Source: Trebouxia sp. TZW2008
Taxonomy: Eukaryota; Chlorophyta; Trebouxiophyceae; Trebouxiales; Trebouxiaceae
DNA: 64,000 bases
Assembly: GCA_002118135.1 (NCBI GenBank)
Contig: BDIU01000205.1
Coordinates: 62,001-126,000, forward strand
Direction of reading: 5' to 3'
Positions 671 through 64,000 of the stretch are shown here, one piece after another. The notes under the pieces are model-generated. The model was not told the origin of the DNA. It did no database searches and was given only the letters and a program-made list of their open reading frames with translations. Position numbers and translations under genes: made by a program. How positions within the stretch are numbered: the first letter of the stretch is position 1; each line of letters opens with the position of its first letter.

Positions 671-3600
671 TCAGGCCTTGATATGAGCCAATGTACAGCG
701 GGATTCCGGGAAATTGTGGCAAGACAATTTCTGCCAAAGCGCAGAGTTCACATACCAATATATGGGTATTGAACCTGCACGGTCATCAGAATCAAGTGCA
801 CACCAGCATTACGGCTAGGCATGTCACTGGGTTGGCCTCCTTTGCACGTATCAGATGATTATGCAATCACACTTGTTGTAAACAACACCAGATTGGCAGT
901 GATATTTAGTCTTGGCATTGCCACCAGGGTTTTGCTCACCAGCATGGCAGCCTTGGCAATGTCACTAGGTTGAGCTTCCTTTTCAGGTACGGGCTCCATG
1001 TCGTCTCTGTCTATAGTCATGGGTGTATACGTTGCTGGAGGGTAGACAGTCACAACCTTGATGCCCTTGTCCTTGAAGAACTGCAGAAGCAATTGGATAG
1101 GGTGACAAAATTGCCAGAAGCATGTTGTGAAGCATACCGTAGTTTCTGATCTTGTACACAATTCTGTATATAAGGATTCTGTATACAAGGACATTGTCAA
1201 CGTAAGGACAATGCTGTTGGAAACCAGTCAAAGCCTTCTGACTACAGCGGTGCCTTTGAGCAAGGCCAATTCGGTACAAGGAAAAATTCCTGGGTACCCA
1301 AAGTTTCTGGGCTACAGAGGCAGATCATTTGCACAAAGCACGGTACAGTGCAAAGAACATGGTGAGGTGAGCTTACCATTGTGCAGCCTTTGCTCCAGCC
1401 CCTGAAGCCCCACCTGCACCACACCACACAACACTGCTCACTTTAGACAGCACTCCAGAACATCACAGACGTTGTCACACCACGCAACCCTGCTCAGCAC
1501 AGGCATTTTGGCGCAGCATAGCAAAGTTGTCACAGCGCAGCAAATTTGTCTCAGCACAGAAAGCATGTCACAGCCATGCATGACACAGTGGCAAAAGCTT
1601 GTCACAGAACAATGAGCTTGTCGCAGCCACCACACAGCACAGCAAGGTTGACACAACAAAGCAAGCTTGCCAAAGCATAAAGCTCAGCATAGTCTCTATG
1701 GCCCAGCACGTGTGACGCAGCATGCACGTGCTGGTGCACGCTGCGTCACCGGCACGTGACGCAGGTGCTAGTGACATGCTGGTGTCATGTCACCAGCACA
1801 TGAGGCAAGACACGTGCCTCACCTCACGTGCTGGTGATGTCACCAGGTCACGTGAGGTCACCGGGTCACCTCACGTGACGTGTTGATGCGAGGGTCCCAG
1901 ACCACAACACCTGAGTATGCCTGGCCTTGGCATGGTTGTCACAGCACAAGCTTGTCGCAGCCATTGTGACACAGCACAGCAAGCTTGCTAAAGTGTAAAG
2001 TTCAGCACAGACTCTATGGCTCAGCACAGCAAGCTTGACAAAGCCAAGTATGACAGAAGACAGCACACGTGACGCATCATAGCAAACTTCCCAGACCACA
2101 ACACTCAGCACAGCACAGCAGGCTTATCAGACCAGGCATTTTCAGGGTAGCGAGCTTGTCACAGCACAAGCTTGTCGCAGCCATCATGACACAGCACAGC
2201 AGACATATGGCAAGAAGCGCTCAGCAAAGCCATCGCTGCTCAGCTTGGCAAGCTTAGCACAGCGCAGCAGGCTTGTCACAGCACAACAAGCTTGTTGCGG
2301 CCATCATGACACAGGACAACAAGCGTGTAGTAACACATCGCTCAGCACAGACATCAGAAACCATTATACCAAACCTTTTACAAGAACAGCTCAGGACAGC
2401 CTGCGCGGCTCAGCATGGCAAGCTTAGCACAGCGCAGCAGGCTTGCCACAGCACAGCAAGCTTGTCTCAGCCACGCATTGCACAAAGCAGCAGATATCGT
2501 GCCAGGTCATGGCAAACTTACTGCAACAAGTGATCAGCACAGCCATCACGGCTCAGCATGGCAAGCTTAGCACAGCGCAGCAGGCTTGTCACAGCACAAC
2601 AAGCTTGTTGCAGCAATCATGACACAGCATAACAAGCTTGTCAAGCATAGCAAGCTTGCTACAGCACAGCAGACTCGTCACAGCCACGCATGGCACAAAG
2701 CAGCAGATATCATGGCAGGTCATGGCAATCTTGTTGCAACGAGTGATCAGCACAGCTGTCACGGCTGAGTATAGCAAACTTGTCACAGCGCAGCAGGCTT
2801 GTCACAGCACAACAAGCTTGTTGCAGCCATCACGACAGAACAGAACAAGCTTGTCAAGCATAGCAAGCCTGCCAGAGCACAGCAGACTTGTCACAGCCCG
2901 GCATGACACAGTATAGCCATAAGGACATAGCACAGCAAGCTTGGCACAGCATATTGAGCCTGTTACAGCACAGCAAGCTTTCTGTAGCACAGCCAACATG
3001 GCACGGCACAACACGCTTGTTGCAGCCATCATTACACAGCACAACAAGCTTGACACAGCCAGGCATGACACAGAAAAGCCGTCCTGACACAGCACAGCCA
3101 TCAGGATGCAGCACAGCAAGTTTGACACAGCACAGCAAGCTTGTCACTGTATACTGCTCAGCCTAGTCACTATGGCACAGCACAGCAGCCTTGACAAAGC
3201 CAGGCATGACACATCAAGGCAAGCTTGGCACAGCCAGGCACATCATGGCACGACAAATTTGTCATATCAGACTGCTCAGCACTGTCATGAGCGTACAGCA
3301 TGCTGGGATCTCTGCTAAACCAGTGCTGGAGTCATTAACAATGGCGACCAACCTGCCCTCCTCCACCATGCTCACACAGTGAAACATTCGAGCCACACGC
3401 ACAGTGTGAGCTTGTTTAAGGAATCAGTAGACGCTGTTAAGGAGGGGAAACCTGTTTGGAAGATGAATAGACAGCATTGCCAGGCTTAGGTGCTAGACCA
3501 GCACTGCAATCAATGGTGATGACAGCACTATTGTCAAAAACGCCAGCATGTAAGTTCTGATTATGCATGTATGCCACAGCTTATACAAAAGGGGAAAGGT

Positions 3601-5061
3601 GGGGGATGGGGGTGCATACTTGGAAGATGAATAGACAGCATTGCCAGGCTTTGGCGCTAGACCAGCACTGGAGTCAATGTTGATGATGACTCCCTCGCCC
3701 TTCTCCACCATGGCTGGTGTGAGGCGGCGCATGAGCCTCATGGGCGCCAACATGTTCACCCTAATCACCTTTTCCCACTCATCTGGATCGCCTGCAACCA
3801 TCCAAAAGCTGTCTCTGTACCCGCTTTCTTGAATGCAGATGGGCTGTGAGTGCAAACTTCTGAAGGGTCATTGTCAGGTTGAGGTGCATGTTCACCTTGA
3901 ACACCTGTTCCCACTTGCCTGTATCGACCACGGTCAGTGAAAGGGTTGCAGACATCTTTCTTGTGCCAGCAGAGATTGTTGGGAAACTAATCAAGTATTG
4001 CAGTACTTACCATCAGTGGGCCCTTGACCCATGTTGGGTCTCTTGGTTGCATCCCCCTCATAACTGATGGGTCCAAGAATGGCTGCGTTGTTGACCAATA
4101 CATCTATGCAGCCATACTTGCTCAGCACCTCTTCTGCAAATTTATCAATCCCTTGCATGTCGCTCAGGTCCAAAGGCATCACGTCAACCTTTTGCGAGCC
4201 CTTCTTCTTGCAGATCTCTGCTACCTAAATGCATAAACAATGCAAATCAAGAAACCACAAGGTGATTCAGCATGACACAGACTGCTTGATAACATGGACT
4301 GTGCCCATATGCACATAAAGTAATGCTGGCCCCTTGAGCGCAAGATGTCAACGGTAGCTGACTGACTGCCCAAGTCAGGCACAAGCATGGAACGAGCATT
4401 ACATTGACACAAAACTGGAGTGCTTTGCTGCGCTGCATTGCATGTAGCATTGTAAGGCCTAGTGATCGCAGACCTCTTTGAGCGCGCCCTCGCGCTGTGC
4501 TAGCAGTATGAGATTTGCACCCTCCTCTGCCATGTTCTCTGCTATAGCCTGGCCTATACCCCTAGATGCCCCTACACCATGCATGAGCTAGGCCATTAAG
4601 AGACAAACACTTTGGATGATGCATTTGCAGCCAATGCGCTACTAAGGCAGCATTTTACCTGTAATGATTACCCATTTGTTCTCCAACACGCGATTCTGCG
4701 GAAGCACCGTCCAGCATGTCAGACGGCAAACAGATCAGCATGCAGACTTGACCGATGCTGTGCAGCTGCGCACCTGCTTCATTGTCGACGCTGTTGCCTT
4801 TGACGCATCTTCATTGGACTTGGTCGACATGGCACGGACAGGTGACCGCTGCACTGGGCTTGACCGGAGGGTGCGAGGCTTTCTATCTGATAGAGGTGAT
4901 GAACGCGACAGGCCTAGGGCAAGTGTGGCTCTCAAGCTACTAGGCTGGACAACGGGACATGCAATCAAGTGACGGCCGAACGATCTAGTCAGCATGATGC
5001 GCGCTAATCTGTTGCCGTCAGTCAAGCAAACATTCAAGTCTTCACGATACGAATCTAACAT
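671..5061 (-). CDS. Short-chain dehydrogenase/reductase, plastid-like leader
   Basis: A classical SDR oxidoreductase using NAD(P)H; substrate unknown. Exons in order: 4774-5061, 4659-4695, 4474-4571, 4011-4224, 3620-3791, 1377-1413, 940-1080, all joining in phase. Joining the second and third exons creates TGASRGIG, the dinucleotide-binding glycine motif. NNAA follows in the fourth, and the YSSSK catalytic Tyr-Lys lies at the end of the fifth. DKGIKVVTVYP is the usual strand after the active site. The first exon is rich in Ser, Arg and Ala, poor in acidic residues, and looks like a transit peptide; translation may start at 5061 or 4995. The last exon is uncertain: 671-730 continues in phase to a stop after 19 residues but is not clearly SDR-like. 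Exons 2 and 6 are 37-bp microexons. Family assignment is strong, 3' end weak. Confidence 0.85.
1140..1265. repeat. AAGGACA-type dispersed repeat, copy 1
   Basis: This stretch has repeated TGTAYAAGGAYA-like words (1150-1215) and then a tract ending near GGTGCCTTTGAGYAAGG. The same order of words recurs at 13553-13680 and 13905-14075, so it is a dispersed repeat and not part of the SDR. It lies in the intron between the 37-bp exon at 1377-1413 and the exon at 940-1080. Confidence 0.6.
1440..3290. repeat. HindIII-type minisatellite in SDR intron
   Basis: About 1.8 kb built from variants of a unit near 19-25 bp around CACAGCAAGCTTGTCACAG, so AAGCTT recurs many times. A higher-order pattern is visible: GGCAAGCTTAGCACAGCGCA starts near 2246, 2418 and 2558, and the AACAAGCTTGTTGCAGCC block recurs near 2286, 2601, 2809 and 3011. 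Open frames on both strands here are by-products of the repeat and were not called as genes. The array lies wholly inside the SDR intron between exons 3620-3791 and 1377-1413. Confidence 0.85.
1705..1885. promoter_or_regulatory. Cluster of CACGTG motifs and nested hairpins
   Basis: Seven CACGTG palindromes lie at 1707, 1725, 1753, 1811, 1825, 1849 and 1872, with an eighth at 2066. Around them are inverted repeats, for example GTGACGCAGC (1712-1721) facing GCTGCGTCAC (1740-1749), and GTGAGGTCACC facing GGTCACCTCAC near 1853-1874. CACGTG is the plant G-box/E-box core bound by bZIP and bHLH factors. Regulation is inference; the block may simply be a diverged segment of the surrounding minisatellite. 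Confidence 0.45.
3285..3945 (-). repeat. Partial copies of SDR exon 3620-3791
   Basis: The 3' part of the exon (from about IDSSAGLAPKPGNAVYSSSK to the donor) recurs at 3457-3530, 163 bp downstream in gene direction, and more decayed at 3285-3370. A copy of the 5' part (reads GKWEQVFKVNM, compare DEWEKVIRVNM) lies upstream at about 3877-3945. Only 3620-3791 has both splice sites and the right phases, so the others are intronic remnants. The stated range includes the intact exon. Confidence 0.75.
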
Positions 5062-5419
5062 GCATGTACAGCCATGTATATAAATGGCCCCTTGTCAGCA
5101 TGCAAACATGATTTTGTTGATTGTCATAACTTTCTTGTTGTCATCTCAGGACTCAAGTCACAAGCCGTCAGCAGATTGAGTGAACCTTGCATGACATTGT
5201 GTTGGCTATGCTGCATGCATGATCCATATGGATAAATAACATGGTTAACACACAAGGATTGCAAGCCGGCGCCATATTTTGACATGCAGAAGGGGTCAAT
5301 TAATGTTGGCGCAACGAAGTCTTACTTGTATTTGCAGGCACCAAGCTCGTATGTACAAATGCATGCATGCCAGGACAATACGATGATGCTTATCAAATGC
5401 CTGTCAGAGTTAGTCACAT
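5062..5419. other. Intergenic, divergent promoter region
   Basis: This lies between the SDR start (minus) and the large plus-strand gene, so it should carry both promoters. I see no clear TATA box or known algal element. Several ATGCATGC-like words occur near 5210-5220 and 5355-5370. Confidence 0.35.
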
Positions 5420-54200: not shown

Positions 54201-57200
54201 CTTTTTGCCCCAAAGACGGGGAAACAGATGCCTTGATCAATATCAATGCTCAAGCTGGCAGATGAGCATGTGCCAAGGCCAATCAGCCTGTGCATTTTTT
54301 TAAGGGTCAAAGAAATGCTAAAAGACGTGCAGAAGATGACTGGCCCTGGCAGATGAGCATCTGCCATCCTGAACATAGGGTTGAATATTGCAATGAGGAC
54401 GCCCTAAATGTAAGGCAGTGCCAATGTTCAGTGCCGCTCTCAGAGAGAAAACTCAGCTGCTCAAAGCCAAACATTGGCCATCAAACACTGCCAATGGCAA
54501 AGTGAACATGCAAAGTAGTGCTGGCGTAGGTGAGCAGCCCAGACTGAATATGTTTTATCATTGGCCATCGAACTGGCAATCAAACAGGCTTGAACACCAT
54601 CCAGCAGACAAGCTGTGTGTCATGAAGCACACATTTTACAACAAACATGACAATGAAGATCAGGCTAAGTGACCCAAGCCATTCAAGCAAGCCCAAGCAC
54701 TATGTAACAGGCAAGCTGTGTGTCATGAGTTGTACCTGGCACAGTGAACATGACAGAGAAGGTGACCAAAAGACTCTGGGTGATGTCAGACCAGCAAACA
54801 CGCTTGAACAGTATACAGCAGGCAGGTATAACACACACTGTGTAAATGATCACACCTCGCACGATGAACATGACGATGAAGATGACCGGAAGGCGCCAGA
54901 AGGTGAGAGCCACTGTCTTGATTGCAAATTGCTCCACGTCGTACAGCTCCTGTAATCAAACAAGAAAATGTCTCAGAACAGACAAAAACAGGTGCAGACG
55001 AGGAGTATGAATAAGAGGAGCAGCAAAACATGAGGGTCACTGTCTTGGTAGCAAACTGCTGAAAGTCACACAGCTCCTATGACAAGCGAGCCATGAGCAA
55101 AAAGAATCACACGGCAAGGTGCTGAGGTCATACAAACTCTGCAAGGCAAGGGCAACAAACAGAAACACTGGAGCATGAGAGTCTGCAAGGGAAGGAGAGG
55201 AACGGTGGCTACCACAGGGACAATGGTCCCAACAGCAAAACTGCTTGATGACCCACAGCTGCTTTGAAGCCATGGCCATGACTACGCACAGAGAAGAAGA
55301 AGGGCTTGGTATGCTTGCAGTCTAGTCTAACATCAAAAACCTCAGCAATAACAGTGCCACTCTTGTTGGCTATTGCTTTTTTCACCTTAGCAGAGCGTAA
55401 AGTCATGGCTTCTATGCAATGCCTGTGGAGAGGAAAAGGAAGCAAAGGCTTATGAACAACAACAGCAGCACTGCGGATGAGTCACAGGAACTGTCAACAC
55501 CTTGATGACTAACCTGAGCAGACCTGACAACAAATGTCATGCTTGGAGATGCAGAGAAGAAGAAGGCCACAGACTGAAAGCAGCCAGATGACTCACCTGG
55601 GCAGACCTGACAAAGAAATTGACGCTGGAAACCCCAGAGAAGAAGAAAACCATGCCAGTGACGGCAAATCCGACAGTGTCCCAGAAATCATCAAAGATTC
55701 CAGATTCTGCAACTTTTGGTGAAAGACCCCATTTGGCTGTTGCACTGCCATACAGACCAAACACCACCACGGCTATGACGCCACTCACTTGTGCTGCACA
55801 CACCAAAGACGCTGTGCCAATCATGATACCGCTGATATCAACTGACAGCCAAAGAGAGTGTTTCATGCGTCATTAGATACATTTGACTGTTGCACTGCCG
55901 TATAGACCAAACACCACCACTGCTATGACTCCACTCACTTGGGCTGCGTGCACCAAAGACACTGTGTCAAACACATACATGCAGAAGAAGAAGACCATGC
56001 CAGTGACGGCAAAGCCAACAATGTCCCCAGCATCAAAGATTCCAGATTCTGCTACTATTGGAGACAGGCCCCATCTGGCTGTTGCACTGCCGTACAGACC
56101 AAACACCACCACTGCTGACACCCCATTCACTTGTGCTGCACATCTGAAACAGTGTGCAAACAGCATGACAACACTTTTCACTGTGGCACTGCCAACAGGG
56201 CCAGACACTGACGGTGCTACAAGCCCACTCACTTGGGTTGCACGCATCCAGAACACTGTGTCTCACACCAGAACATATACTGAGCTGCTGTTGGGTGTCC
56301 ATGTAACAGGCCAAACAAAGCAAATGACACATGACAATGTGAACTTGTCTGTTGCACATTAACTTTGGTCTGATGCCCCAAGCAAATGGAGTCATAGCAG
56401 TGGTGAAATTTAGTCTGTATGGAAATGCAACAGCCACATGTGCAGTGTCATACGCGACACATTGGCTCATGTACAAGACCCTGTTGCATTGCTTCAGAGG
56501 ACCAAACATCACCACTGTTATGAGACCGCTCCCTTGTTCTATACACATGAAAGACAGTGTGTCGTACATGAGCCGACGTTTGACACTGTACATGTGGCTG
56601 TTGCACTTCCATGCAGATTGAATTTCACCACTGCTATGACTCCATTTGCTTGGGCATGAGACCAAAGACAATGTGCACAGACCAAAGTGACCACGTACAC
56701 ATTGCAAGCAGAGAGTTGCGTTACGTACAAAAGGCTATTACAGAAAATCTGTGGACATGAACATTGCAAACCCTCACCTGGTGCATTAGCTAGGTAGAAA
56801 GCCAGGTAGGCCATTGCGACAGTAAGCGCCATCTCCTCAGGCGCTTTAGCTCCTCTGGACCTCAGCAGGCTCAGCAGCCACTTAGTCACCCACCCACAGG
56901 CAAATCCAATTGCAAAACCCCCTGAAGCAAAGGTTAGGAAGCGTAAGAAAGGGTTACTGTTGACAGGCAGGGGCATGCTTTTGCTCTGCAGCAAATTTGA
57001 TACAGGATGTTGGCCCTTGCTTCCAAAGGACCGGTTTCATGGGCTGCAGATGTTTTTCATGATCAATAGATATGCAACATTAGCAGCCAAAGTCCAGTTG
57101 AGGCGAGACCAGGGGAGGGAGCTTGGGTGGATTACTGGGTGGTAGCAATTACCTGCTGTGAGACGGCAGATCTGGTATAGGATGTTGGCACCTTCTTCCA

Positions 57201-59626
57201 AAGGACCAGCCTCAGTGGCAGCAGACCCTTCTCCAAGCTTCTTGACCATCTCAAAGAAGATCTCAAACAACACGATCGATGTCGCATCATTGAAGAGGGA
57301 CTCCCCCTCCATCAAAACCACTATCTTGTCAAGGCCACCGCCTAAAGCGAAATCACCACGGCTGGTCAACAAAGTCAAGAAAGTCCAAAAAGAGCCTCAG
57401 TGGCTGCTGACCCTTCTCCAAGCTTCTTGAAAATCTCAAAGAAGATCTCAAACAACAACATGAATGTTGCGTCACTGAAGAGGGATTCAACTTCCATCAG
57501 AACCACTATCTTGTCAGGGCTGCTGCCTGAAGCCATATCACCACAGCTGGTGTCAAAAGAAGAACAAGAGGAGAAGAAGAAGAGATAACGACTCCTGTCC
57601 AAGGGCTTACACCATTTCAAAGAAGATCTCAAACAGCACGATGGATGCTGCGTCATTGAAGAGAGATTCTCCCTCCATCAAAAGTATCGATTATCTTGTC
57701 AAGGCTGCCACCTTTCAAAGATGTCTGAAACAACAGGATGGATGTTGCATCATTGGAAATGACTGATGACTTGAAATGACTAATCTTAGCTTTTGCGTAC
57801 TTTTTGACCACAAAACATACTGTAACAGCGTCTGTAGGGGCAATCATGGCGGCAAACAGCGCTGTGTGACTTTTGCATGCAGTTCATGGACGCATATGTT
57901 CAGAGACCTCCAAGTGCACATGCCCACTATTGGACCAACAGACACTCTGCTCATGGGTGGCTTTCCCTTACCTTTTTTGAGCACAGAGGACACTGAAACA
58001 GCATCTGTGGGTGCAATCATTGCTGCAAACAGCGCTGTCTGACTGTGGCATTGATTTCTGAAACGCATGTGATCATAATCACCATCATACAGGGCCCAGC
58101 ATCAGACCAACAGCCGCTGAGTGCTCACCTTTCTTTAGCACAGAAGATACTGAAACAGCGTCTGTGGGTGCAATCATTGCTGCAAATAGCGCTGCATGCT
58201 GCCACTTCCAGTTGACTCCCCTCAGATCAAATAGGTACAGCAGGATGGGCGTCATGACGGCCGTAAAGGCGATGACGATCAGGAAGGCGAAGGTAATCAC
58301 ATGGTATAGCATCTGCACAACACACAGGTTAATGAGCATGCTGTCAACTGCATTTGACTCCTCTCCAGTCAAACAGGTACAGCAGGATGGGCGTCATGAC
58401 GGCTGTAAAGGCCATGACGATCAGGCAGGCACATGTAATCACATGATACAGCATCTGCAAAACACATGGGCTGATGAGCACATTGATAATAAAACAGTCA
58501 TACCCCCACATTCCAGCACATGCGCTAGGTGTGTGTGGCCTCGTCCTGTCTCGTCAGGCAGGCTTGTTCTGGAGCGCCTCTGAAGGGCACTCTGCTATTT
58601 AAAGAGCACAGTGGAACAGTGCATCTATCATCAGGGATGTGTTAACAGCTTCAGCGATCATTGTGCTGCATTGCATATCTGTTGGATGTGTTAACAGCTT
58701 CAGCAATCATTGAGCTGCATGCATGTCTGCTGGATCTGAAGTTTTGCTGCAGAAACCGGCCTGTCAAAATGCAGCATGCCTCATACTGTGAGATTCACAT
58801 CATGAATTGGCCTGCTCACAAACATGAGCACAGTCAGGCAGATGCAGATGACATCAGGTGAATCTGTGCTTGTCCAAGACTGTAGATGTTGCTATTGCAA
58901 GAGCCTTTGAAGCTGCATGAACTAGCAGCAGCTGTTAAGGGTCTTGCCTTCAACTGCCTGAGGAAGGAAACCCTGCCTCAGTGCAGCATGTATTGTTTGA
59001 TCACAGTGCTGTGAGTCATTTGTGTGCAGGCACATACGTTGTCGAGACAGGACTTGTACGATATAAACCTCAAAGTTTCGCCGGCCAATGTAAACATTGT
59101 TTCTGTTACTTACATTGCATGTGTCAACATTGCAACCCAAGATGCATACCTTGCGAAAGATGAAGTAATCTATCCGCACTGCAGAGTCCACCAGCATTGG
59201 TGGCAAGAAGATGTACAGAAATAAATCTGCAGGCTCAATACCAAGCCAAATGGCTATGCCATTTCCCACTGGTCCTGTCTTTATAGGAAAGGCTATTGCC
59301 TGAAGCACACCGCCTGTGTACAAAGCATGCCTTGATTGATTGTCTCGACACGTGTGCCCGTGCAAAGGCAAAGTAGGCAAAAGCGTGCACTCTTTGTTTC
59401 AGTTTGATTCAGAGCGCATGCTAATTAGGCTCAAGACATGCGCTGTGGCTCCAGTCTACATTAGGATTGCTGTCAACCGATCAAGAGGCCGTTGATGATA
59501 TACCTGCAATCAGTGTCCACAGAGCCGAAAATTTGCCCTGACACATGGCAGCAACGACCACAGCCATCGCCCCAAACAAGACCGCATCGAACCCTTTATC
59601 CGGTACCACGCACCAATTATAGTGAT
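30078..59626 (-). CDS. SOS1/NHX7-like Na+/H+ antiporter
   Basis: A plasma-membrane-type CPA1 cation/proton antiporter of about 1,672 residues plus an unresolved first exon; it would export Na+ in exchange for H+. About 30 exons over 29.5 kb were joined with all phases matching, and groups are described in separate entries. The order follows plant SOS1: membrane domain, cytosolic linker, regulatory helices, cyclic-nucleotide-binding-like fold, conserved tail. Diagnostic sequences are LPPMLVDSAVRIDY, AAMIAPTDAVSV, GESLFNDATS, GGLRGAVSL, GEGIYIVMAGLIKSS and the C-terminal TSRLKVVAVNKLS. The first exon is not resolved: a candidate ATG exon at 59757-59794 ends in phase 2, but the next exon needs phase 1. 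Assignment to SOS1-like rather than vacuolar NHX rests on the long tail with the cyclic-nucleotide-binding-like fold. Confidence 0.85.
30808..31205 (-). repeat. Three 3' partial copies of exon 31334-31450
   Basis: The intact exon reads RQMMADGNLRGFWSKQGRFR. Its 3' part with the donor gtaagt/gtaagc recurs with exon ends at 31151, 30978 and 30808 (spacing 183, 173, 170 from 31334). The copy at 30808 still reads RQMMADGNLRGFWSQQIHFR. Copies of the 5' part lie upstream near 31660-31690 and 31785-31815. Confidence 0.85.
31530..31552. repeat. Interstitial telomere-type repeat CCCTAAA
   Basis: CCTAAACCCTAAACCCTAAACCC, just over three units of the plant-type telomere repeat. It lies inside an antiporter intron, so it is not a chromosome end. 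The type fits land plants and many trebouxiophyte algae; Chlamydomonas has TTTTAGGG. Confidence 0.8.
32160..32560 (-). repeat. Three-fold repeat upstream of exon 32091-32154
   Basis: A block with TTCAAAATGGCRGGAACAGG, then CCATCACCACAGCCCCTGC and TTTGGCTTGTGTGGT recurs at about 32164-32285, 32295-32405 and 32412-32470, roughly 120 bp per unit. A further trace near 32510-32575 repeats the acceptor side of the exon (GCTCTGGCT). Confidence 0.75.
32685..32760. repeat. Dispersed repeat (TCACTTGGGCATGAGAGT), copy 1
   Basis: GAGACTCAGAGGTCACTTGG through GCATGAGAGTATCTGTGACACCA matches 60748-60830 and 61140-61260. It lies in the antiporter intron between exons 35188-35340 and 32091-32154. Confidence 0.65.
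32850..34350. repeat. Palindromic GTGGACA/TGTCTAC motif array
   Basis: GTGGACARTGTCTACTGC-like words and their complements recur near 32862, 33425, 33455-33480, 33590, 33760-33785, 34098 and 34190-34235. AGACAATGTC and GACATTGTCT (about 34192-34225) form a perfect 10-bp inverted repeat. Interleaved is GTGTGCTTGATGGCATGTGC plus CAGTGTCTTCACTGC, at about 33367, 33817 and 34325. All of it is intronic. Confidence 0.55.
33905..34080 (-). repeat. SINE-like element, near full-length copy
   Basis: Read on the minus strand: AGAGATACTTGGCAGTCAAC, GTACAAGGACCTCTCCGCCC, CATGTCCAAT, CACATGAT, then TACGTACCTAGTTGGGCT, GCTGAGCCTGCCTACC and ATAATGAATGAACGA. The same order occurs on the plus strand at 39067-39383, 5 kb away. 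A related older copy is suspected at 33005-33245 (minus). Confidence 0.7.
34393..34770. repeat. Three tandem units of 143-159 bp
   Basis: GGACTGCAGGGCCGTTGTAC and its variants begin at about 34397, 34540 and 34699, each followed by a GGCCCTTGGCCCTGGCT-type segment and, in the first two, CTTCACTTYYTACAACACA. They lie in an antiporter intron. I could not link them to a present exon. Confidence 0.7.
36639..39847 (-). CDS. Antiporter exons after the nucleotide-binding-like fold
   Basis: Exons 39636-39847 (GFFLGNGGIFGLLQALVGEP, then GPVVFHIPQYVVGRIKERAM), 37574-37727 (ALYVVDRLKTEVITSAITHF, HIVKRITNRHKVKHPDQ) and 36639-36761 (GAFRAIVAQEFERALADLST). Phases 2, 0, 0 match their neighbours. The first completes the cyclic-nucleotide-binding-like fold: FGLLQALVGEP stands where active folds have FGELALL and a later Arg. 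The Glu and Arg that hold cAMP are not evident, so binding of cyclic nucleotide is doubtful, as in plant SOS1. The donor at 39635 is supported by a downstream copy with the same donor at about 39446. Confidence 0.75.
36970..37880 (-). repeat. Copies of antiporter exon 37574-37727
   Basis: The 3' part of the exon (LQSRRHIVKRITNRHKVKHP) recurs four times downstream, at about 37437-37505, 37292-37367, 37141-37215 and 36979-37050, spaced about 136-162 bp, each still readable as LQSRxHxxKxIxNRHxVxHP-like sequence. A copy of the 5' part (MVNRLKTEVITSAITYFQHI, acceptor CTGGC side) lies upstream at about 37793-37880. The range includes the intact exon. Confidence 0.85.
37935..38830. repeat. Four-copy tandem array of about 225 bp
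   Basis: CACAGACATGACTGGA recurs at 38086, 38307, 38531 and 38759 (steps 221, 224, 228), each unit also carrying GTGCTGTACNGGGC, GCAACAGCCAATCA-like and AAGATCTGCCTGAAGACTTG blocks. It fills the intron between exons 39636-39847 and 37574-37727. No exon match was found. Confidence 0.85.
39067..39383 (+). repeat. SINE-like element with long GAGT tail
   Basis: Head AGAGATACTTGGCAGTCAAC, GTACAAGGACCTCTCCGCCC, CATGTCCAATATAAATGG, then GTACGTACCTAAATGGACCT, then about 180 bp of GAGT with some GAGG/GAGC units (39201-39383). The head matches the minus-strand copy at 33905-34080 nearly base for base over its first 50 bases. Confidence 0.7.
40184..45667 (-). CDS. Antiporter regulatory region and CNBD start
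   Basis: Exons in order: 45308-45667 as part of the linker (its lower limit is 45307), 43922-44091 (VLSEGRIRLVSGLKRYFHDK), 42848-42886 (39-bp microexon), 42421-42525 (AESKKVWKFIIDREIEAPAR), 41825-41990 (FVEQLYSSGMVDEQEQEQLL), 40938-41055 (VLKQLPFVQNTSAEIFRRLL, GEVMWQPPTG) and 40184-40272 (DGEGIYIVMAGLIKSSYLTP). All phases agree. The segment from LKQLPFV to IKSS is the first half of the cyclic-nucleotide-binding-like fold. The donor at 41824 (gtaagc) is preferred to 41852 because a downstream copy near 41655-41735 carries the same site. The microexon is the least certain. Confidence 0.75.
40856..41560 (+). repeat. Two 5'-truncated SINE-like copies
   Basis: AGTACGTACCTAGCTAGGTC with GCTAAGCCTGCCTACCAT and an AATGAATGAA-like tail (40856-40925), and TGTATGTACCTAGCTGGCTC with a shorter tail-less end (41513-41560). 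Both share the core of the element at 39067-39383. Confidence 0.6.
41103..41408 (-). repeat. 5' partial copies of exon 40938-41055
   Basis: Upstream copies at about 41128-41196 (LKYLPFVQNISTEIFRRLLQ), 41253-41283 (MLKQLPFVQHE) and a trace at 41370-41405. They carry the exon start and lie on the acceptor side only. Confidence 0.75.
41655..42345 (-). repeat. Copies around exons 41825-41990 and 42421-42525
   Basis: A 3' copy of exon 41825-41990 with its gcttac donor lies at about 41675-41735, and a 5' copy with acceptor (AAMAILRQQAKFVEQLYSS) at 42054-42131. A 3' copy of exon 42421-42525 lies at about 42282-42345. The intron stretch at 42535-42665 is also repeated at about 42697-42815, showing that pure intron sequence is duplicated too. 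Confidence 0.7.
43732..45000 (-). repeat. Copies of exon 43922-44091
   Basis: Five 5' copies lie upstream, ending at acceptor positions near 44270, 44513, 44675, 44833 and 44995; those at 44405-44513 and 44568-44675 still read EGRIRLVSGLKRYFHDKRA or close. One 3' copy lies downstream at about 43748-43815. The range includes the intact exon. Confidence 0.85.
45307..51044 (-). CDS. Antiporter cytosolic linker, low-complexity exons
   Basis: Exons 50951-51044 (VDWQAVEEFVDMSDSLHQFA), 50197-50484 (RKAANVFKKACFGLVTSQES, then acidic and Gln-rich), 49269-49351 (DPLGSDSDEDEEAPRTPQAH), 48573-48745 (MREDKDSSGDEQAEGTGIFD), 46968-47306 (SQGSRRRSIAKPQDPHPHPN), 45788-46011 (EQEEEEEQSHGGNDGMDDDN) and 45307-45667 (Lys/Arg-rich then acidic). 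All junctions keep phase. This roughly 520-residue, mostly disordered and acidic stretch stands between the membrane domain and the regulatory helices and is much longer than the same span in plant SOS1. It is likely a phosphorylation-rich regulatory loop, which is inference. Confidence 0.75.
45699..45768. repeat. CAGCA pentamer microsatellite
   Basis: About 14 uninterrupted AGCAC units in the intron between exons 45788-46011 and 45307-45667. Confidence 0.95.
46060..46700 (-). repeat. Six or seven 5' copies of exon 45788-46011
   Basis: The acceptor side and first part of the exon (CTCTTCTTCTTGCTCTGCAG, GGGGCTGGNGG, GATGCTGCCTGG on the plus strand) recur near 46070-46185, 46210-46300, 46325-46365, 46380-46475, 46497-46570 and 46590-46690. 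Intron pieces such as CAAATGCACAGCTCAATG are repeated with them. Confidence 0.8.
47385..47660 (-). repeat. Two 5' copies of exon 46968-47306
   Basis: Segments at about 47395-47475 and 47575-47660 repeat the start of the exon (ACTGTATTGGTGCTGCATTG-like, GCCCGACTGC, GTGTCTCCTGCAG). They lie upstream in gene direction. Confidence 0.7.
47667..47999. other. Antiporter intron part without clear content
   Basis: This is intronic sequence between the copies of two exons. Open frames occur on both strands, but none has splice support or a family likeness. Confidence 0.35.
48000..48868 (-). repeat. Copies of exon 48573-48745
   Basis: Three 3' copies downstream at about 48386-48500, 48178-48265 and 48000-48085 repeat GAACAGGCTGAAGGCACTGG and on to CCTGGTCATC-type ends. 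One 5' copy with acceptor (RLSTGTVIGKGGMQQV) lies upstream at 48788-48868. Confidence 0.8.
49400..50105 (-). repeat. Five to seven 5' copies of acidic exon 49269-49351
   Basis: Versions of RxxDPLGSDSDEDEEAPRTP recur upstream with acceptors near 49440, 49578, 49705, 49831 and 49908, and acceptor-only traces near 49995 and 50092. The copy at about 49770-49831 reads PADPLGSDSDEDEEAPRTPQ, as good as the chosen exon. The chosen one alone has the in-phase gtaagt donor. A cassette-exon role for the better copies cannot be excluded. Confidence 0.8.
50815..51250 (-). repeat. Copies of exon 50951-51044
   Basis: A 3' copy with donor (reads DGIPSPPDR then gtaagg) lies at 50815-50860 and a 5' copy with acceptor (VVDWQAVELLKRHQ) at about 51210-51250. 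The range includes the intact exon. Confidence 0.7.
51645..53100 (-). repeat. Symmetrical copies of exon 52344-52545
   Basis: The intact exon reads LWTAGVVVLTLLVNAPLIPL and ends RYTQNAVTELRNDEDEMLR. Three 3' copies lie downstream (about 52150-52245, 51955-52045, 51645-51735) and three 5' copies upstream (about 52640-52727, 52793-52894, 52995-53100). The 5' copies still read LWTAGVVVLTLIVSLSLIPL and LWTAKIAVLTLLMKAPMIPL. This is the clearest example of 5' fragments before and 3' fragments after the intact exon. Confidence 0.9.
51770..51842 (+). repeat. 5'-truncated SINE-like copy with TATG tail
   Basis: CTATACGTACCTAGCAAGGC, GAGCCCAACTAGCATGCATT and a GTATGTATGTGTGTATGTATG tail. It shares the GTACCTAG core with the other copies. 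Confidence 0.55.
52344..59626 (-). CDS. Membrane domain exons of the antiporter
   Basis: Exons in order: 59504-59626 (GFDAVLFGAMAVVVAAM), 59150-59274 (DLFLYIFLPPMLVDSAVRID), 58129-58312 (FLIVIAFTAVMTPILLYLFD, then AAMIAPTDAVSVSSVLKK), 57153-57341 (DKIVVLMEGESLFNDATS), 56778-56921 (GGFAIGFACGWVTKWLLSLL), 55597-55793 (VSGVIAVVVFGLYGSA, TGMVFFFSGV), 54856-54949 (FWRLPVIFIVMFIVR), 53703-53884 (FTTFGGLRGAVSLILAQMLV) and 52344-52545 (LWTAGVVVLTLLVNAPLIPL). All phases agree. LFNDATS holds the Asn-Asp pair of the CPA1 ion site and GGLRGAVS the conserved Arg helix. About ten or more hydrophobic helices are present. Confidence 0.85.
53170..54405 (-). repeat. Copies of exon 53703-53884
   Basis: Three 3' copies downstream (about 53170-53280, 53365-53465, 53540-53630) repeat LxxSKDMLQxAQ with donor. 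5' copies upstream (about 53983-54085, 54325-54405, trace at 54256) repeat NPMFKLADAHLPGP-like sequence. Confidence 0.85.
54617..55300 (-). repeat. Copies of exon 54856-54949
   Basis: 3' fragments at about 54721-54763 and 54617-54660, and 5' fragments at about 55027-55078 (DFQQFATKTVTL) and 55228-55265 (QLWVIKQFCC). Weakly conserved, but in the expected order. The range includes the intact exon. Confidence 0.6.
55880..56680 (-). repeat. Seven copies of exon 55597-55793, one inverted
   Basis: 5' copies lie upstream at about 55880-55965, 55985-56145 (nearly the whole exon: GVSAVVVFGLYGSATARWGL, ESGIFDAGDIVGFAVTGMVF), 56173-56238, 56496-56555 and 56585-56665. A further copy at 56352-56474 is on the plus strand (NGVIAVVKFSLYGNATA). 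It faces the copy at 56564-56680, giving an inverted repeat with arms near 120 bp and a 90-bp spacer. The copy at 55985-56145 keeps an open frame and reads on into the next copy. Confidence 0.85.
57390..58453 (-). repeat. Copies of exons 57153-57341 and 58129-58312
   Basis: For 57153-57341, upstream copies lie at about 57390-57530 (DKIVVLMEVESLFSDATFML, still open), 57605-57712 and 57713-57760. For 58129-58312, 3' copies lie downstream at about 57968-58040 and 57780-57868 (ALFAAMIAPTDAVTV), and one 5' copy upstream at 58364-58453 (LIVMAFTAVMTPILLYLF). The range includes the acceptor side of the second exon. Confidence 0.85.
58454..59149 (-). other. Antiporter intron, little visible structure
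   Basis: Intron between exons 59150-59274 and 58129-58312. A short direct repeat, TGTTAACAGCTTCAGCRATCATTG, starts near 58640 and again near 58690. Nothing else stands out. Confidence 0.4.
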
Positions 59627-59794
59627 CTGCATGATGAAGCGGGCATTAATGAAATCTTTCACGCAACTGCGTCGTCTGCGCTCTGACTGCGCAGGACATG
59701 CATGTGATAGTGCAGAGAGCGCATCGTCACGCTGACGTTGCAGTCGCACAACTCACGCAGTTTCAAGCGTGACAATATTGTTCACCTTCGTCAT

Positions 59795-61925
59795 TGACAC
59801 GGTGAGTGTACGACACATTGTGGTGATGGCAGAACGCAAAGGTGTCCTCTTCCCACGGATCTGCCCAAAGCCCGTGCGCCAGCGTGCTATTCATCGCGAT
59901 GCAGGAGATGTCACATCTGCCGCTACCGAGCACCAAGCACAAATTCCAGTGCGGCACCTGGCGAATTTGCTTCCGCTTCCGAAACGGTGCATCGGTTGCA
60001 GTGCGTGGTTTCGGAGCATGCCAGCTACTGAGGCACTTGGTCACAGCTCCTTCCCGTGCGACTGACTTCAAGCGCTGTACGCAAGCTGGTGAACACAGCA
60101 GAGCTTCTCCAGGAGCTTCACAAGCTTGGTGCTTGATGCTTGAGCAGCAGTGACATGAGTCGTAAGTCATACGCCACAAAAAGGACATCAATATGTCAAC
60201 AACGGCACTGCTGTTCATGTATAGCTCGGTTGTCCGAAATCAGACGTTGCTCTACTGGCACGAGTTCTGCTGTAGCTAGCATGAAAACAGCTCATGTCTG
60301 GCTATGCTGACTCACCGCAGGCAGGCTGGCAGGCCAATGTGACATGTGACCACTAGAGCATCCTGTTCAGCAACTGTCACTACAAATCTGCTGCATATTG
60401 AGGTCTGCAGTTGAGGCGGCCTACAGCAGATGCGGTCTGCAGTCAGGTAATGCATGGCACCAAACCAACACAATGATGACTGCATCAACAGCACTGCTGC
60501 AGCATGATGCCATGAGGCTGATTTCAGCAACCTGATATTCAGGCAAACACAAATCTTGCTGCCACAACAAACTTGTCAAGTTGTGTGGCATCATCGTTTA
60601 TAAGCATTAGATCATCAGCTCTGCTCGGTCTTTTCATTTTGCCGAGGCTGCTTGATCCTCAGACCTTCAGTGCAGCTTTTTACACAGATGCACAGCTAGC
60701 AGACTACACACATGCAGATTTAACTGCAGCTGTACAACCGGTTTGAGAGTCAGAGGTCACTTGGGCATGAGAGTGTCTGTGACACCACTCTCACCCAAGC
60801 TGATGCATATGCCGCACAGAATATAGTTTTCAAAGTTGCTGCTGCTGTTGCTGCTGCACAAGTAGTTTTCAAAGCCACCACACCAGTCAGACTCACCAAC
60901 TGAAACTGTGCTTCCTTGACATGCTTGTTTTTGCTGCTGCTTACAATTGTTGACTAGACAGGCAGCCTGCCTTTGTAGCCATGTCTTTTCTCTCAGCAGC
61001 ATGTTTTGCATGGACTCCAGGAAGCGCAGCTGCCGTTGCCTGTTTGAATCAGGCCTTACTGCAAGGCTTCATTGCTGTGGATGTTGGTGCACCTTTGTGT
61101 GCTGTGTTGGCAAGGCTTTGCAACATGCATTGCGCTGTGTATGAGACTCAAGGGTTACTTGGGCATGAGAGTATCTAGAACACCAGTCACACCTAACCTG
61201 ATGCATATGCCACACAATTCCGCACAATGTGTAGTCATTCTAGTTGCTGCTGCATCTGCATCAAGCTGTGCTGTGTCTATATTGCCGAAGACCCATGTGT
61301 CGCAAGTCATGCACAACCAGGCCGTCGTATCAACCTAGCGTACCACAGCTCTGAAGCAGGTGGAGGTGACTGTACAAGCTTGCAGTCATCAACCACTGGC
61401 CGCATCGCCTGTGACCCTGTGCTCATTTATAGTGCCGCAGTGGCTGCTTTATATCATGCTGTTGGCACAGCTCTTCACTCCACGTCTCTATGTTCAACTG
61501 CACAGGGCACCTTGTTGTTAGGTCTTACCTTGCTTGCGAGGGCAATTGCAAATTGTGCCTTGCAGAGTCTAGACCTAGACAGTGCATCAAATGACCAACA
61601 GCAAGCTCTGCAGGTCCAAGTCAGGTCGGCGAGGCCGCTTTGAAATTACATTGCTGAACCTGCGCCTCAGCATGCGCAGCATGGCATGTAGGCATCAGAA
61701 TCTCCAGCAGGACAAGAAACAAATCGCCCTGGCATTTGCATGAGCTGCCACTAGAACCGGGGCCTTTCCAGCAATGCCCTGCGTACAGGATCCGGCCTTG
61801 CTCCTTTTGGATGGATGTTTGCGGCCAATAGTGCTTCAGTCCAAAAAAATGACGCACGAAGCGCGACTCTCTATCGACTGCTGACTGCACTTGTTTGCAA
61901 TCGCTGCGTTGATGGTATAAGCAGG
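59795..61925. other. Divergent region before antiporter and PSY
   Basis: This lies between two genes running apart, so both promoters should be here. It holds two copies of the TCACTTGGGCATGAGAGT repeat (60748-60830 and 61140-61260). Open frames at 59842-60153 (plus), 59763-60218 (minus) and 61227-61643 (plus) have no recognisable domains. One may hold the missing first antiporter exon, but I cannot choose. Confidence 0.4.
60748..61260. repeat. Dispersed repeat (TCACTTGGGCATGAGAGT), copies 2 and 3
   Basis: GAGAGTCAGAGGTCACTTGG (60748) and TGAGACTCAAGGGTTACTTGG (61142), each followed by GCATGAGAGTRTCT, ACACCA, CTGATGCATATGCC and RCACA, with matching GTTGCTGCTGC stretches further on. A third copy is at 32685-32760. 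Confidence 0.65.
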
Positions 61926-64000
61926 ATGGCGTTTCAGCTACCAGCCGTGGGTCAGCTGCCGGACGTCAGCAGTCATGTCCCTTGCAGACAAGCCCTCAGC
62001 CATACGTCTCGCAGGTACGCATGATGATGTGCCAAAGCTGTGCAAGCCATTTGATCTGTGATTGGAGGCAGATTGCGTGTATCTTGGGCATCAGGCTCTG
62101 CAGAACTCACAACACTCTATATGTGTGCGATTCAGGTCAAATGGCTGCAGGATTCCCCGGTTGAGGCCACGCCACACATCAGTAAAGGCGCGCAGCAACG
62201 AAATTGCAACAGTGTCAGCAGCAACTGTGACAGCTAAGCAGTCGCCAGCTACTGTACAACCCGACGGCAGCGTATTGTCAGCTCCTGGTTTCAGCAGCAC
62301 ACAGACGCTAGAACGCAGACAGCTACAAGGAAGGGAGGTTGAGGAGCGGGCTTTGGACTGCTGCGTTCAAGCACATCAGGAACGCCCGAATGGCTTGCAG
62401 TTGCCCAGCAGATTTGGCGACGGAGGTCTTGACGAAGCATATGAACGATGTGGAGTTGTTACTGCGAGTTATGCCAAAACATTCTACTTGGGCACACAGC
62501 TGATGACACCAGAAAAAGCCAAAGCCGTGTGGGCCGTCTATGTCTGGTGCCGACGGACGGATGAGCTCGTTGATGGACCAAATGCCTCTCGCATCACGCC
62601 TGAGGTACACAGCACTGATCTCTGTGCCAGGTGTCGTTGCTCAGCAGCTTGGCTTTGTAAACAGTGTACAGCAACCTGCTGGTTCAAAACAGAGATATCA
62701 GGCAATACAGCAGCAAGCAGGCACACATTTGCCGCTCAGCAGGATTGTCACGATGCTGCAATCATGACAACACTGTTCGTGTAGTACAGTAGTTCAAAGC
62801 TCCCTGCTCTACTGTTCTTGGTTGCAATGAGGCAACAGCTGTGTTGCAAGGTAGTCACAGCATCCAGTGCCCTATTCTGCAGCGTCATCGCTGAACTCAT
62901 CATTATTATGCACCAAATATGTGTTATCAAATTTGGCACTCAATGATTACTGATGTTGTTGCAGGCACTAGACAGATGGGAGGAGCGATTAGAAGGTATC
63001 TTTGAGGGCCGACCATATGACATCCTAGACGCAGCACTGACGGACACAGTCAGCAAATTTCCAGTCCACATTCAGCCGTTCCGAGACATGATCGATGGGA
63101 TGCGGATGGACCTTGTCAAGCAGCAATATGAGAGCTTTGATGAGCTGTATGGCTACTGCTATAGGGTAGCCGGCACTGTAGGGTTGATGACAACGCCTAT
63201 CATGGGCATTGACCCCTCATATAAGGTGGAGTCCCTGAAAGCTGTCTTTACGTCTTTGTCAATGTGCTACAAATCTGATTGCGCCTACCACGGGCATTGC
63301 CCTTTTTACAAGGTGGCCAGCAAAAGCTGTCTCTGCATGTTTCTCAATGCATCTATGTAGGTGTACATGGTGGGTGACTGCTTCAGGCAGTCCCCTTTGC
63401 ATGCTTGTTGCCTATCAACAGTGCAAACAGTGCATGTGACATTGCAAATTGACCAGCTTGACCAGGGCCACTGATCCAGGAGCAGCCTTTGCATCTTCCC
63501 AAAAGCACTAACGCAAAGGTACATAGCTGGCTGACTGCGTCAAGCTTATCTGTGGACTTACTGTGTCTCCAGGTACAGTTCAACAATTTTGGCTTGTGCA
63601 TTGAGTTGCGCACTGCTGCGATGTGAAGGCTGTTGCGCAGACTGTGATGAGTGCTGCTGTTTGCAGGTCTGGTGGGTAAAGATGCGTCAATCTCAGCAAA
63701 CATAACAAATGCAGGGCTGTTGCGGCTTTAGCATATTGCATTGAGCATGTGCTGCACACAGATCAGCGTTAATTGCTAAGCAATTTTCAGCCAACCAGGT
63801 CAGCATCCGTTGCAAGCTGGCGGCTTGCATTCATATTCTCCAAGACACATCGCCAGATCAGGGAGGGATGTGTACAATGCAGCGGTAGCATCAGGCACTG
63901 CACTGGTTTTACGCTATTGACTGGCCATACCTATGATGACTGCAGGGCCCCTTCAGAGATGTACAAGGCAGCACTTGTTGCAATCGCTTGTCAAAATTAT
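61926..64000 (+). CDS. PSY: Phytoene synthase, 5' part
   Basis: Joins two geranylgeranyl diphosphates to phytoene, the first committed step of carotenoid synthesis, in the plastid. Exons: 61926-62014, 62136-62604 and 62965-63225, all in phase (273 codons). The start gives [18 protein letters not shown], followed by an Arg/Ser-rich leader typical of a transit peptide. [36 protein letters not shown] (first Asp-rich motif, DELVD) and [11 protein letters not shown] are family signatures. The second Asp-rich motif and the C-terminus lie beyond the right edge, so the gene is truncated by the window. The start at 61926 is chosen because the exon 1 donor (gtacgc) leaves phase 2, which the next acceptor needs. 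Confidence 0.93.
63283..63312 (+). repeat. 3' partial copy of PSY exon 62965-63225
   Basis: GCCTACCACGGGCATTGCCC to TTACAAG and gtggcc repeats the exon end (GCCTATCATGGGCATTGACC to TATAAG and gtggag), 87 bp downstream. Intron sequence after the donor is repeated as well. Confidence 0.75.
63946..64000 (+). pseudogene. Decayed 5' copy of the next PSY exon
   Basis: After TGCAG the sequence reads, with one extra base near 63952, as [16 protein letters not shown], which resembles the family stretch following the exon end at 63225. In the phase needed (0) the frame is shifted, so this is probably a broken 5' copy and the real exon is to the right. A real exon with a base error is the alternative. 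Confidence 0.45.

Follow-up and report, generated by a model that had tools for sequence, protein, structure and literature searches.

Genes and exon copies in the window

The window analyzed here is a 64,000-nucleotide (64-kb) stretch of Trebouxia sp. TZW2008 contig BDIU01000205.1. Its firmly named genes encode a short-chain dehydrogenase, an SOS1/NHX7-like Na+/H+ antiporter, and phytoene synthase, and the exon counts reported below come from the antiporter gene only. This 29.8-kb gene was modeled by tblastn searches with homologs and by refinement of splice sites and phase, wherein the start codon and the inner edges of exons 13, 15, and 16 are approximate. The exons were set by orthology, independent of the repeats. 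Once spliced, the gene reads through 1,839 codons with no stop, and its product shares 1185 of 1658 aligned residues (71%) with Trebouxia protein P0121. Most of the exons (22 of 32) have at least one partial copy, hereafter called an echo. In the features listed here, a seam is the exon position at which copies of the 5′ edge end and copies of the 3′ edge start.

30081..59893, minus strand: SOS1/NHX7-like Na+/H+ antiporter gene, 32 modeled exons, 1839-codon open frame
58129..58312, minus strand: exon 4; echoes upstream 58480-58336 (5′ edge), downstream 58037-57967 and 57864-57801 (3′ edge); seam at exon position 119
57153..57341, minus strand: exon 5; echoes upstream 57551-57393, 57713-57611, 57755-57715; downstream 57050-56991
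55597..55793, minus strand: exon 7; six 5′-edge echoes upstream (56676-55880; one inverted, 56363-56440), one downstream 55564-55504
53703..53884, minus strand: exon 9; echoes upstream 54403-54327, 54118-53993; downstream 53614-53542, 53459-53362 (91%), 53296-53174; copies match the ortholog at the protein level
52344..52545, minus strand: exon 10; echoes upstream 53100-53001, 52897-52783, 52730-52632; downstream 52244-52143, 52036-51975, 51725-51640; seam at position 103
49269..49351, minus strand: exon 13; upstream echo array 49402-49919, in part a 128-bp tandem array
48573..48745, minus strand: exon 14; echoes upstream 48870-48804; downstream 48510-48363, 48255-48168, 48059-47989
43922..44091, minus strand: exon 18; echoes upstream 44270-44183, 44519-44399 (90%), 44684-44567, 44838-44808, 44994-44939; downstream 43817-43684, 43620-43576
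41825..41990, minus strand: exon 21; upstream echo 42137-42056 (90%)
37574..37727, minus strand: exon 25; upstream echo 37924-37797; four downstream echo matches 37508-36979, starting at exon positions 73-78
34311..34475, minus strand: exon 29; echoes upstream 34762-34538; downstream 34188-34136, 33860-33800, 33717-33659 (inverted, 90%), 33536-33510, 33428-33348, 32997-32962
31334..31450, minus strand: exon 31; echoes upstream 31814-31764, 31687-31653; downstream 31212-31146, 31054-30973, 30883-30785; seam at 42-44
37954..38889, no strand: 224-bp tandem array in intron 24, one of two exon-free local repeat families in the antiporter gene
19737..20122, plus strand: youngest array, exon 3′ edge and intron start, 147-bp unit, 2.6 copies; unnamed gene, exon inferred from frame and donor
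20664..20849, plus strand: exon 3′ edge and echo (85%) in the same unnamed gene as the 19737..20122 array; exon inferred from frame and donor
3456..3686, minus strand: short-chain dehydrogenase gene; exon 3′ edge 3620-3686, downstream echo 3456-3522 (92.5%)
63194..63349, plus strand: phytoene synthase; exon 3′ edge 63194-63264, downstream echo 63282-63349 including the intron start (positions 1733-1888 of L004)

A self-BLAST comparison of the window (word size 7, E ≤ 1e-3, dust) returned 193 repeat pairs, wherein 186 are less than 2 kb apart (180 direct and 6 inverted) and 7 are at least 5 kb apart. The initial annotation held that decayed partial exon copies fill the introns, and that word-based self-alignment should yield an excess of repeats over shuffled sequence. 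Both points are borne out. Five Markov-1 block shuffles of the window gave 0 local pairs versus 186 in the natural sequence. The latter figure is 149 (143 direct) outside a minisatellite-like block at 1.4–3.3 kb that holds the other 37 and is not an exon echo.

There are 83 echo matches within the antiporter gene, with 1 to 8 per exon when overlaps are counted. One lies inside its own exon, and the other 82 occupy 72 non-overlapping places totaling 6.7 kb. A single match among the 83 is found beyond a neighboring exon, and of 84 matches in the window, one falls beyond the gene, immediately after its 3′ end. Because nearly all matches are near their own exon and within their own gene, each set is specific to its exon, as had been proposed. 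This distribution rules out a single mobile element.

The order of the copies is strict. Among the 82 remaining in-gene matches, all 44 that carry the exon 5′ edge lie upstream of the exon and all 28 that carry the 3′ edge lie downstream, while none carries both edges and 10 carry neither. Orientation is direct in 79 of the 82. In intron 9, for example, copies of exon 9 are followed by copies of exon 10. Moreover, the ends of 5′ copies and the starts of 3′ copies nearly coincide within the exon (median gap 6.5 bp versus 25 bp permuted, p = 0.003, 10 exons), and random breakpoints would not give such a shared seam.

Repeats constitute 42% of the antiporter intron bases, in agreement with the suggestion that echoes add to intron length. 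An exon is involved in 34 of the 36 local repeat families of this gene, versus a share of 20 to 24% when random short-range duplication is simulated with the same detection. The first simulation used hand-entered offsets and lengths, with round guesses for roughly half of the latter, and a repeat with data-derived offsets and lengths and with higher indel (four times) and age settings still gave 20 to 24%.

Inspection by eye shows the same kind of copy in the short-chain dehydrogenase and phytoene synthase genes and, away from the window, in a CCT chaperonin gene. In the phytoene synthase and CCT genes, the same order holds at four more exon edges, and intron sequence is clearly part of three of the four copies. 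A pair described earlier as near-identical at 19.8–20.0 kb corresponds to the 147-bp unit, in which the second copy has 96% identity. An ortholog search for one unnamed plus-strand gene found nothing.

Decay and intron content of the echoes

The copies drift neutrally. Across 60 echoes, differences from the exon at the three codon positions are 0.112, 0.112, and 0.249, as would be expected for a drifting echo and a constrained exon. Most gap events (21 of 26) shift the frame. The splice dinucleotides persist in 29 of 38 echoes for AG and in 11 of 21 for GT, which is not above what echo divergence predicts. The antiporter matches are 68 to 95% identical to their exon, with most below 92%, and identity shows no steady fall with distance from the exon. 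Copy ages differ, as the initial annotation had claimed. At codons where exon and ortholog differ, the echo matches the exon in 195 cases, the ortholog in 9, and neither in 54, and the copies are mostly younger than the split from the P0121 Trebouxia.

Many of the duplicated units contain intron sequence. Paired intron flanks past the splice motif are more alike than mispaired flanks (p = 1.5e-5 and 7.2e-6), and intron homology (p < 0.05) is present at the place expected for a tandem unit in 17 of 34 nearest echoes, and likewise in 5 of 6 tested nearest echoes with exon-part identity of at least 0.88. Thus, spliced RNA is ruled out as the sole origin, since intron sequence was copied too. Intron-less copies across exon junctions were also not found; among 38 pairs of a 3′-edge echo and a 5′-edge echo of the next exon in the antiporter gene, the closest are 73 bp apart.

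The intron parts are nevertheless too unlike for simple whole-unit tandem duplication with equal decay, which simulation rules out as a sole account. Equal age would predict detection of intron parts in 29.2 of 30 nearest echoes, yet they were detected in 16, and the scores of 24 of the 30, including all six with the highest exon-part identity, fall below the simulated 5th percentile. Homology as long as the offset, equivalent to the whole period of a minisatellite array, was found in 1 of 25 pairs at 91% identity or more (and in 1 of the 12 whose offset does not exceed 220 bp), and therefore most pairs are not clean tandem duplications. Some older arrays and the 1.4–3.3 kb block do look tandem.

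Other flank comparisons gave mixed outcomes. An earlier test of 24 hand-picked copies gave intron homology above the 95th percentile on the acceptor side in 9 of 14 cases, but on the donor side in 1 of 10. All 14 edge echoes with match identity of at least 88% extend 15 bp or less into the intron (two further such matches are at no edge), a count skewed by the effect of intron bases, which reduce match identity. In an anchored flank comparison, no excess identity appeared past the splice motif, an unreliable result in that the alignment penalizes large indels and picks pairs by overall match identity, which favors intron-poor copies. Given this bias in both tests, exon-part identity was weighed more.

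Repeat density and spacing across the genome

Stretches were sampled from evenly spaced contigs, always at the same position; of the 20 intended, three were absent and another, 1,957 bases long, was left out. In the remaining 16 stretches of 10 kb, local direct repeats cover 0 to 37% of bases (mean about 9%), compared with 13 to 43% in the six full pieces of the window and 7% in its last 4 kb. The repeat density of the window is unusually high and is not typical of the genome.

Outside the minisatellite block, the nearest-copy offset in the window has a median of 171 bp (IQR 138–201, n = 80), and that in the sampled stretches a median of 160.5 bp (IQR 125–197, n = 74), wherein both share a peak at about 160 to 170 bp. 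The interpretation offered in the initial annotation is therefore upheld in part. Support for local duplication, as opposed to one mobile element, comes from sets that are exon-specific, local, and mostly direct and from repeats of the same spacing in the sampled stretches, and the age spread and intron growth also stand. Its action “everywhere” at the density of the window is unsupported, given the 0 to 37% range elsewhere.

A codon-phase test on the sampled loci, itself weak, is in line with the antiporter control (p = 0.023 versus 0.017). At locus L020, an 83-bp, 96% identical copy ends no more than one or two bases from the inferred exon end and donor, and a near-identical exon part has unrelated flanks. 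The copy at locus L011 extends about 15 bp beyond the inferred donor. PRP8 exon matches revealed no clear duplicates; the PRP8 loci nonetheless contain some local repeats, and no contrast is therefore drawn from this gene. Two contigs with squalene/phytoene-synthase-like matches are identical, sharing a 3.4-kb stretch, and thus provide no allele comparison.

Possible origins of the echoes

Introners belong to a single family that occurs across many genes, in bursts that enlarge intron content. The echoes are likewise sequence bursts enlarging intron content, but the algal sets are private to each exon, with 83 of 84 matches in the exon's own gene rather than one family in many unrelated genes. 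Introners and introner-like elements are treated in PMC4457414.

Pace et al. 2009 (PMC2671141) describe proximal duplications in vertebrates that are repair-mediated and related to “doublets”. The average distance in that paper is 1.2 kb, and the copies, with a mean of 162 bp and a median of 147 bp in the human proximal set, are attributed to synthesis-dependent strand annealing. Few of the 824 donors in Table 2 of that report are at coding exons (4 partial exon/intron, 2 full exon, and 2 intron/full exon/intron, with 278 intron). Like the vertebrate copies, those in the alga are short, local, and DNA-level, and lie near their donor. Unlike that set, their nearest distance is about 160 to 170 bp, and 34 of 36 families in one gene touch an exon, so that donors are not drawn from any sequence. 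The echoes therefore work like repair-mediated proximal duplications or doublets, rather than being counted among them.

Tandem genomic duplication as a source of introns is treated in PMC3443670 and PMC4974935; in the model reviewed in PMC3443670, duplication of an exonic AGGT creates the new intron. The model implies that the intron start copies the downstream exon and the intron end the upstream exon. As in the model, the echoes involve short tandem duplication with exon sequence and splice sites, but their order is reversed and they reside in introns flanking whole exons. Because copies of the 5′ edge occur exclusively upstream of the exon they derive from, and those of the 3′ edge exclusively downstream, the order rules out intron gain through tandem duplication of exonic sequence. 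In yeast lacking FEN1 (rad27), PMC13334657 reports small inverted triplications with duplicated arms of 148 bp on average and a rise in tandem duplications, and names the inverted triplication as the main product of Okazaki-maturation duplication in mutant yeast and tumors. A unit near 150 bp and, presumably, phased breakpoints are common to the alga and to the events in that paper, but direct copies dominate in the alga and the FEN1 link is by analogy. Literature titles and abstract starts yielded no description of exon copies in trebouxiophyte introns, which is not proof of absence. The available Coccomyxa and Asterochloris passages make no mention of them, the word intron is absent from PMC11523091, and its sole occurrence in PMC12712428 is in the reference list.

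We consider it probable, though far from assured, that the echoes derive from recurrent nucleosome-sized tandem or near-tandem DNA duplications, among which those straddling a junction survive and stay readable. Such small duplications would arise repeatedly along the genome and leave copies mostly 130 to 200 bp from their source, an offset about as long as a nucleosome repeat or an Okazaki fragment. If the unit spans one exon–intron junction, the reading exon would retain both splice sites and the extra half-exon would end up in the intron, and therefore the mRNA would be unchanged and the copy would drift neutrally until unreadable. Duplications within an exon or of a whole exon would alter the protein and be lost. 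Intron-internal duplications would survive, yet fade faster because both copies drift, whereas a frozen exon partner would keep junction-straddling copies readable. At the level of replication or repair, the step would presumably be flap or strand-annealing mis-processing at nucleosome-phased ends, and a selective filter and splicing-out of the copies are likewise presumed. Exon-edge duplication need not imply exon targeting, since survivorship and visibility favor junction-straddling copies. In simulations, survivorship and visibility alone fail to account for the size of the exon bias.

Tentatively, exons could instead be the preferred substrate, wherein a nucleosome-phased or transcription-coupled process recurrently places copies of half-exons, each exon being broken at a single reproducible seam, about 160 bp away in the adjoining intron. 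Introns would go on growing under such a process, and the copies would be left as dated relics of what the exons once were. One particular form of the junction-straddling duplication account makes exons true hot spots, in that Okazaki ends at the midpoint of an exon-positioned nucleosome would be subject to flap mis-processing that duplicates half-exons. The 160 to 170 bp spacing and the seam fit this form, as do breakpoints at nucleosome midpoints, aligned with Okazaki termini, in the FEN1-lacking yeast of PMC13334657. We regard it as quite unlikely, given that the main yeast product is an inverted triplication whereas the copies here are mostly direct, and nucleosome positions here are putative. 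Gene conversion from the exon, which would keep ancient echoes alive by resetting the exon part while intron flanks drift past recognition, is also unlikely. It would explain why intron parts look older than exon parts, why identity does not track distance, why the L020 flanks are unrelated, and why intron-only families, which have no frozen template, are almost absent. Mosaicism, however, is slight (longest identical run 19.3 bp versus 17.2 bp permuted; 3 of 47 echoes at p < 0.05), and intron-only pairs should be homogenized too.

Copying guided by RNA or the spliceosome, such as repair synthesis templated by a gene's own nascent transcripts or splicing intermediates, with splice sites delimiting the copies, strikes us as distinctly improbable. 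It would accommodate the strong exon bias, the L020 copy that ends at its inferred donor, and, subject to their shared selection bias, the 14 intron-poor edge echoes and the anchored comparison. It is at odds with intron homology past the splice motif, which is also seen by eye in the CCT and phytoene synthase genes, with the L011 copy, with the existence of inverted copies, and with the finding that no 3′-edge echo in the antiporter gene abuts a 5′-edge echo of the next exon. A functional role for the echoes, as selected alternative or decoy exons, is highly improbable; many do keep AG or GT, but retention is no higher than divergence predicts, codon positions 1 and 2 differ equally, and most gaps shift the frame. 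Assembly error or collapsed reads are barely conceivable as a source, even though the assembly is a draft of 527 contigs and two contigs have an identical 3.4-kb stretch in common. Artifacts would be near identical, unlike the antiporter matches, and the 32-exon frame is open throughout.

If general in the lineage, the echoes would constitute a natural record of short duplications, dense enough for study of their size, direction, rate, and fate, and would permit a direct test of replication or repair breakpoint phasing on exons. They also offer introns a way to grow without transposons. Gene annotation is affected as well, as half-exon copies resemble coding sequence and could lead gene finders astray. 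A few echoes retain ortholog-shared residues that have been lost from the exon (the 9 codons noted above).

Genome setting and the antiporter gene model

The window spans positions 62001-126000 of contig C197. The assembly that holds it (68.5 Mb in 527 contigs, with 47-52% GC in the stretches inspected) fits the published Trebouxia genomes (63.1-73.9 Mb and 49.6-51.1% GC; PMC11523091). Three window genes can be named firmly, namely a dehydrogenase (PF00106), a phytoene synthase (PF00494), and the antiporter; other frames gave coiled coils and a stretch resembling an EF hand, all under Pfam cut-offs. Gene modeling covered the antiporter alone.

30081..59893, minus strand: SOS1/NHX7-like Na+/H+ antiporter gene, 32 modeled exons

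Because defining exons from repeats would have been circular, the antiporter exons were set by orthology, wherein conserved exons were placed first, the Trebouxia protein was used next, and splice sites and phase were refined last. The model runs from 59893 to 30081 and its spliced frame of 1,839 codons has no stop, although the start and, in exons 13, 15, and 16, the inner edges are less sure. The best full-length relative, with 1185 identical residues out of 1658 aligned, is the protein of Trebouxia sp. C0010, followed by those of Myrmecia (744/1617) and Coccomyxa (710/1599). The 29-kb antiporter gene read from sequence alone in the initial annotation is correct.

Exon echoes: geometry, divergence, and exon bias

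Each antiporter exon with 150 bp was queried against the entire window (E ≤ 0.01, at least 20 exon bases) for echoes, which are partial exon copies in neighboring introns. The search gave 84 matches, which are not independent events; some echoes derive from other echoes. Of the 84, 83 lie within the antiporter gene, including one inside its own exon. Echoes accompany 22 of the 32 exons and occupy 72 places free of mutual overlap. Among 82 matches, 79 are direct and three inverted, and only one of the 83 in-gene matches lies past a neighboring exon. Where a match reaches within 5 bp of the acceptor (5′) edge, it is always upstream of its own exon (44/44), and where it reaches the donor (3′) edge, it is always downstream (28/28); none carries both edges and 10 carry neither. 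Ten exons have clear copies of both kinds, and along these exons the end of the upstream copies and the start of the downstream ones fall close together (median gap 6.5 bp versus 25 bp permuted, p = 0.003), with exon 20 breaking the pattern (73 bp). The proposal that exons are echoed in their introns stands, and in the antiporter, the sole gene modeled, it holds in a stronger form than could be seen by reading.

Compared with the exon, 60 antiporter echoes differ at 156/1396 first, 156/1392 second, and 345/1388 third codon positions. Positions 1 and 2 differ equally, as expected without selection, and we attribute the surplus at position 3 to synonymous change of the exon itself. These echoes contain 26 gaps, 21 of them frame-shifting. 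The AG is kept in 29/38 echoes and the GT in 11/21, the latter count taking in two at the last exon, which itself lacks a donor. Of 258 codons that distinguish the exon from its Trebouxia ortholog, the echo agrees with the exon at 195, with the ortholog at nine, and with neither at 54, so that most echoes arose, or were reset, after the split from the ortholog. The nine codons, in the echo at 44519-44399 and in others, share with the ortholog an amino acid absent from the exon and are possible molecular fossils.

An exon is included in 34 of the 38 antiporter repeat families. Two of the other four connect places more than 5 kb apart; an intronic pair 5 kb apart (33951-34090 and 39049-39187, 86% identical) is probably not an echo but a dispersed element. 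A null of random short-range insertion under the same detection limit, with offsets and lengths taken from the data and three age/indel settings, predicts that 20-24% of detected events involve an exon (20% in an earlier version with partly guessed lengths). The bias survived a fourfold indel rate, and even at even odds, 34/36 exon families gives p of about 1e-8. Because the null is a simple one of our own making, and families cannot be equated with events, we take this result as strong evidence for some degree of bias of the repeat families toward exons.

DNA-level or RNA-level copying

Copies of spliced RNA would lack intron sequence. Past the splice motif, the intron sequence flanking an exon and that flanking its echo matched better than mispaired flanks did: 9/29 and 7/19 exceeded the 95th percentile (p = 1.5e-5 and 7.2e-6). 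Intron homology (p < 0.05) was present where a tandem unit predicts it for 17 of 34 nearest echoes (median unit 149 bp), and intron sequence is visible by eye in CCT exon copies (contig C87 of the assembly) and in a 3′-edge copy of phytoene synthase. Antiporter 3′-edge and next 5′-edge echoes are at least 73 bp apart, and therefore no joined-exon copy is among them. Copying is thus at the DNA level in at least about half of cases.

A clean tandem model fares less well. The intron part of nearest echoes was found in 16/30, versus 29.2/30 expected from a simulation matched to exon-part identity. Scores fell under the simulated 5th percentile in 24/30, including all six with exon-part identity of at least 0.88, five of which had a detected intron part. 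Homology as long as the offset occurred in 1 of 25 pairs at ≥91% identity. Both the shortfall and this rarity count against that model. Among sampled loci of the same assembly, a 96% pair (L020) has a copy stopping at the inferred exon end, or a base or two off, and the copy in a 95% pair (L011) extends ~15 bp into the intron.

Local repeats in the window and the genome

Self-alignment of the window yielded 193 repeat pairs and five block shuffles yielded none, confirming the claimed excess. Less than 2 kb apart are 180 direct and six inverted pairs, and seven are farther apart; 149 local pairs lie outside a minisatellite-like block (1.4-3.3 kb) and 37 inside. This block (1491-3240; ~19-bp units, 213-bp higher-order period) lacks a codon-phase signal and is therefore unrelated to the echoes. 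The idea that local duplication acts everywhere stands in part: local direct repeats are found elsewhere, but patchily, covering 0-37% of bases in sixteen 10-kb genome stretches versus 13-43% in six full window pieces, which places the window close to the top.

Offsets to the nearest copy have a median of 171 bp in the window without the block (IQR 138-201, n = 80) and 160.5 bp in sampled genome stretches (IQR 125-197, n = 74), the same scale as nucleosome repeats and Okazaki fragments. Short local duplication, a known kind of event, is the most economical cause. Human repair-mediated duplications have proximal copies (median 147 bp), but coding exons are involved in few of the 824 donors (PMC2671141). 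Breakpoints in FEN1-mutant yeast are tied to nucleosome midpoints (PMC13334657). Our literature search found no described case matching the density and exon bias seen here.

Locus L013 holds a dense local array (1147-1876) with several inverted matches amid direct copies; most loci differ. Loci L005 and L006 (contigs C50 and C432), both with squalene/phytoene-synthase-like matches, share 3,381 identical bp, which may reflect either assembly redundancy or very recent duplication. Antiporter introns hold long (AGTG) and (CAGCA) microsatellites (39199-39383 and 45700-45768), and intron 30 carries short, interstitial CCCTAAA repeats (31536-31549) of the plant telomere type, possibly a break-repair scar.
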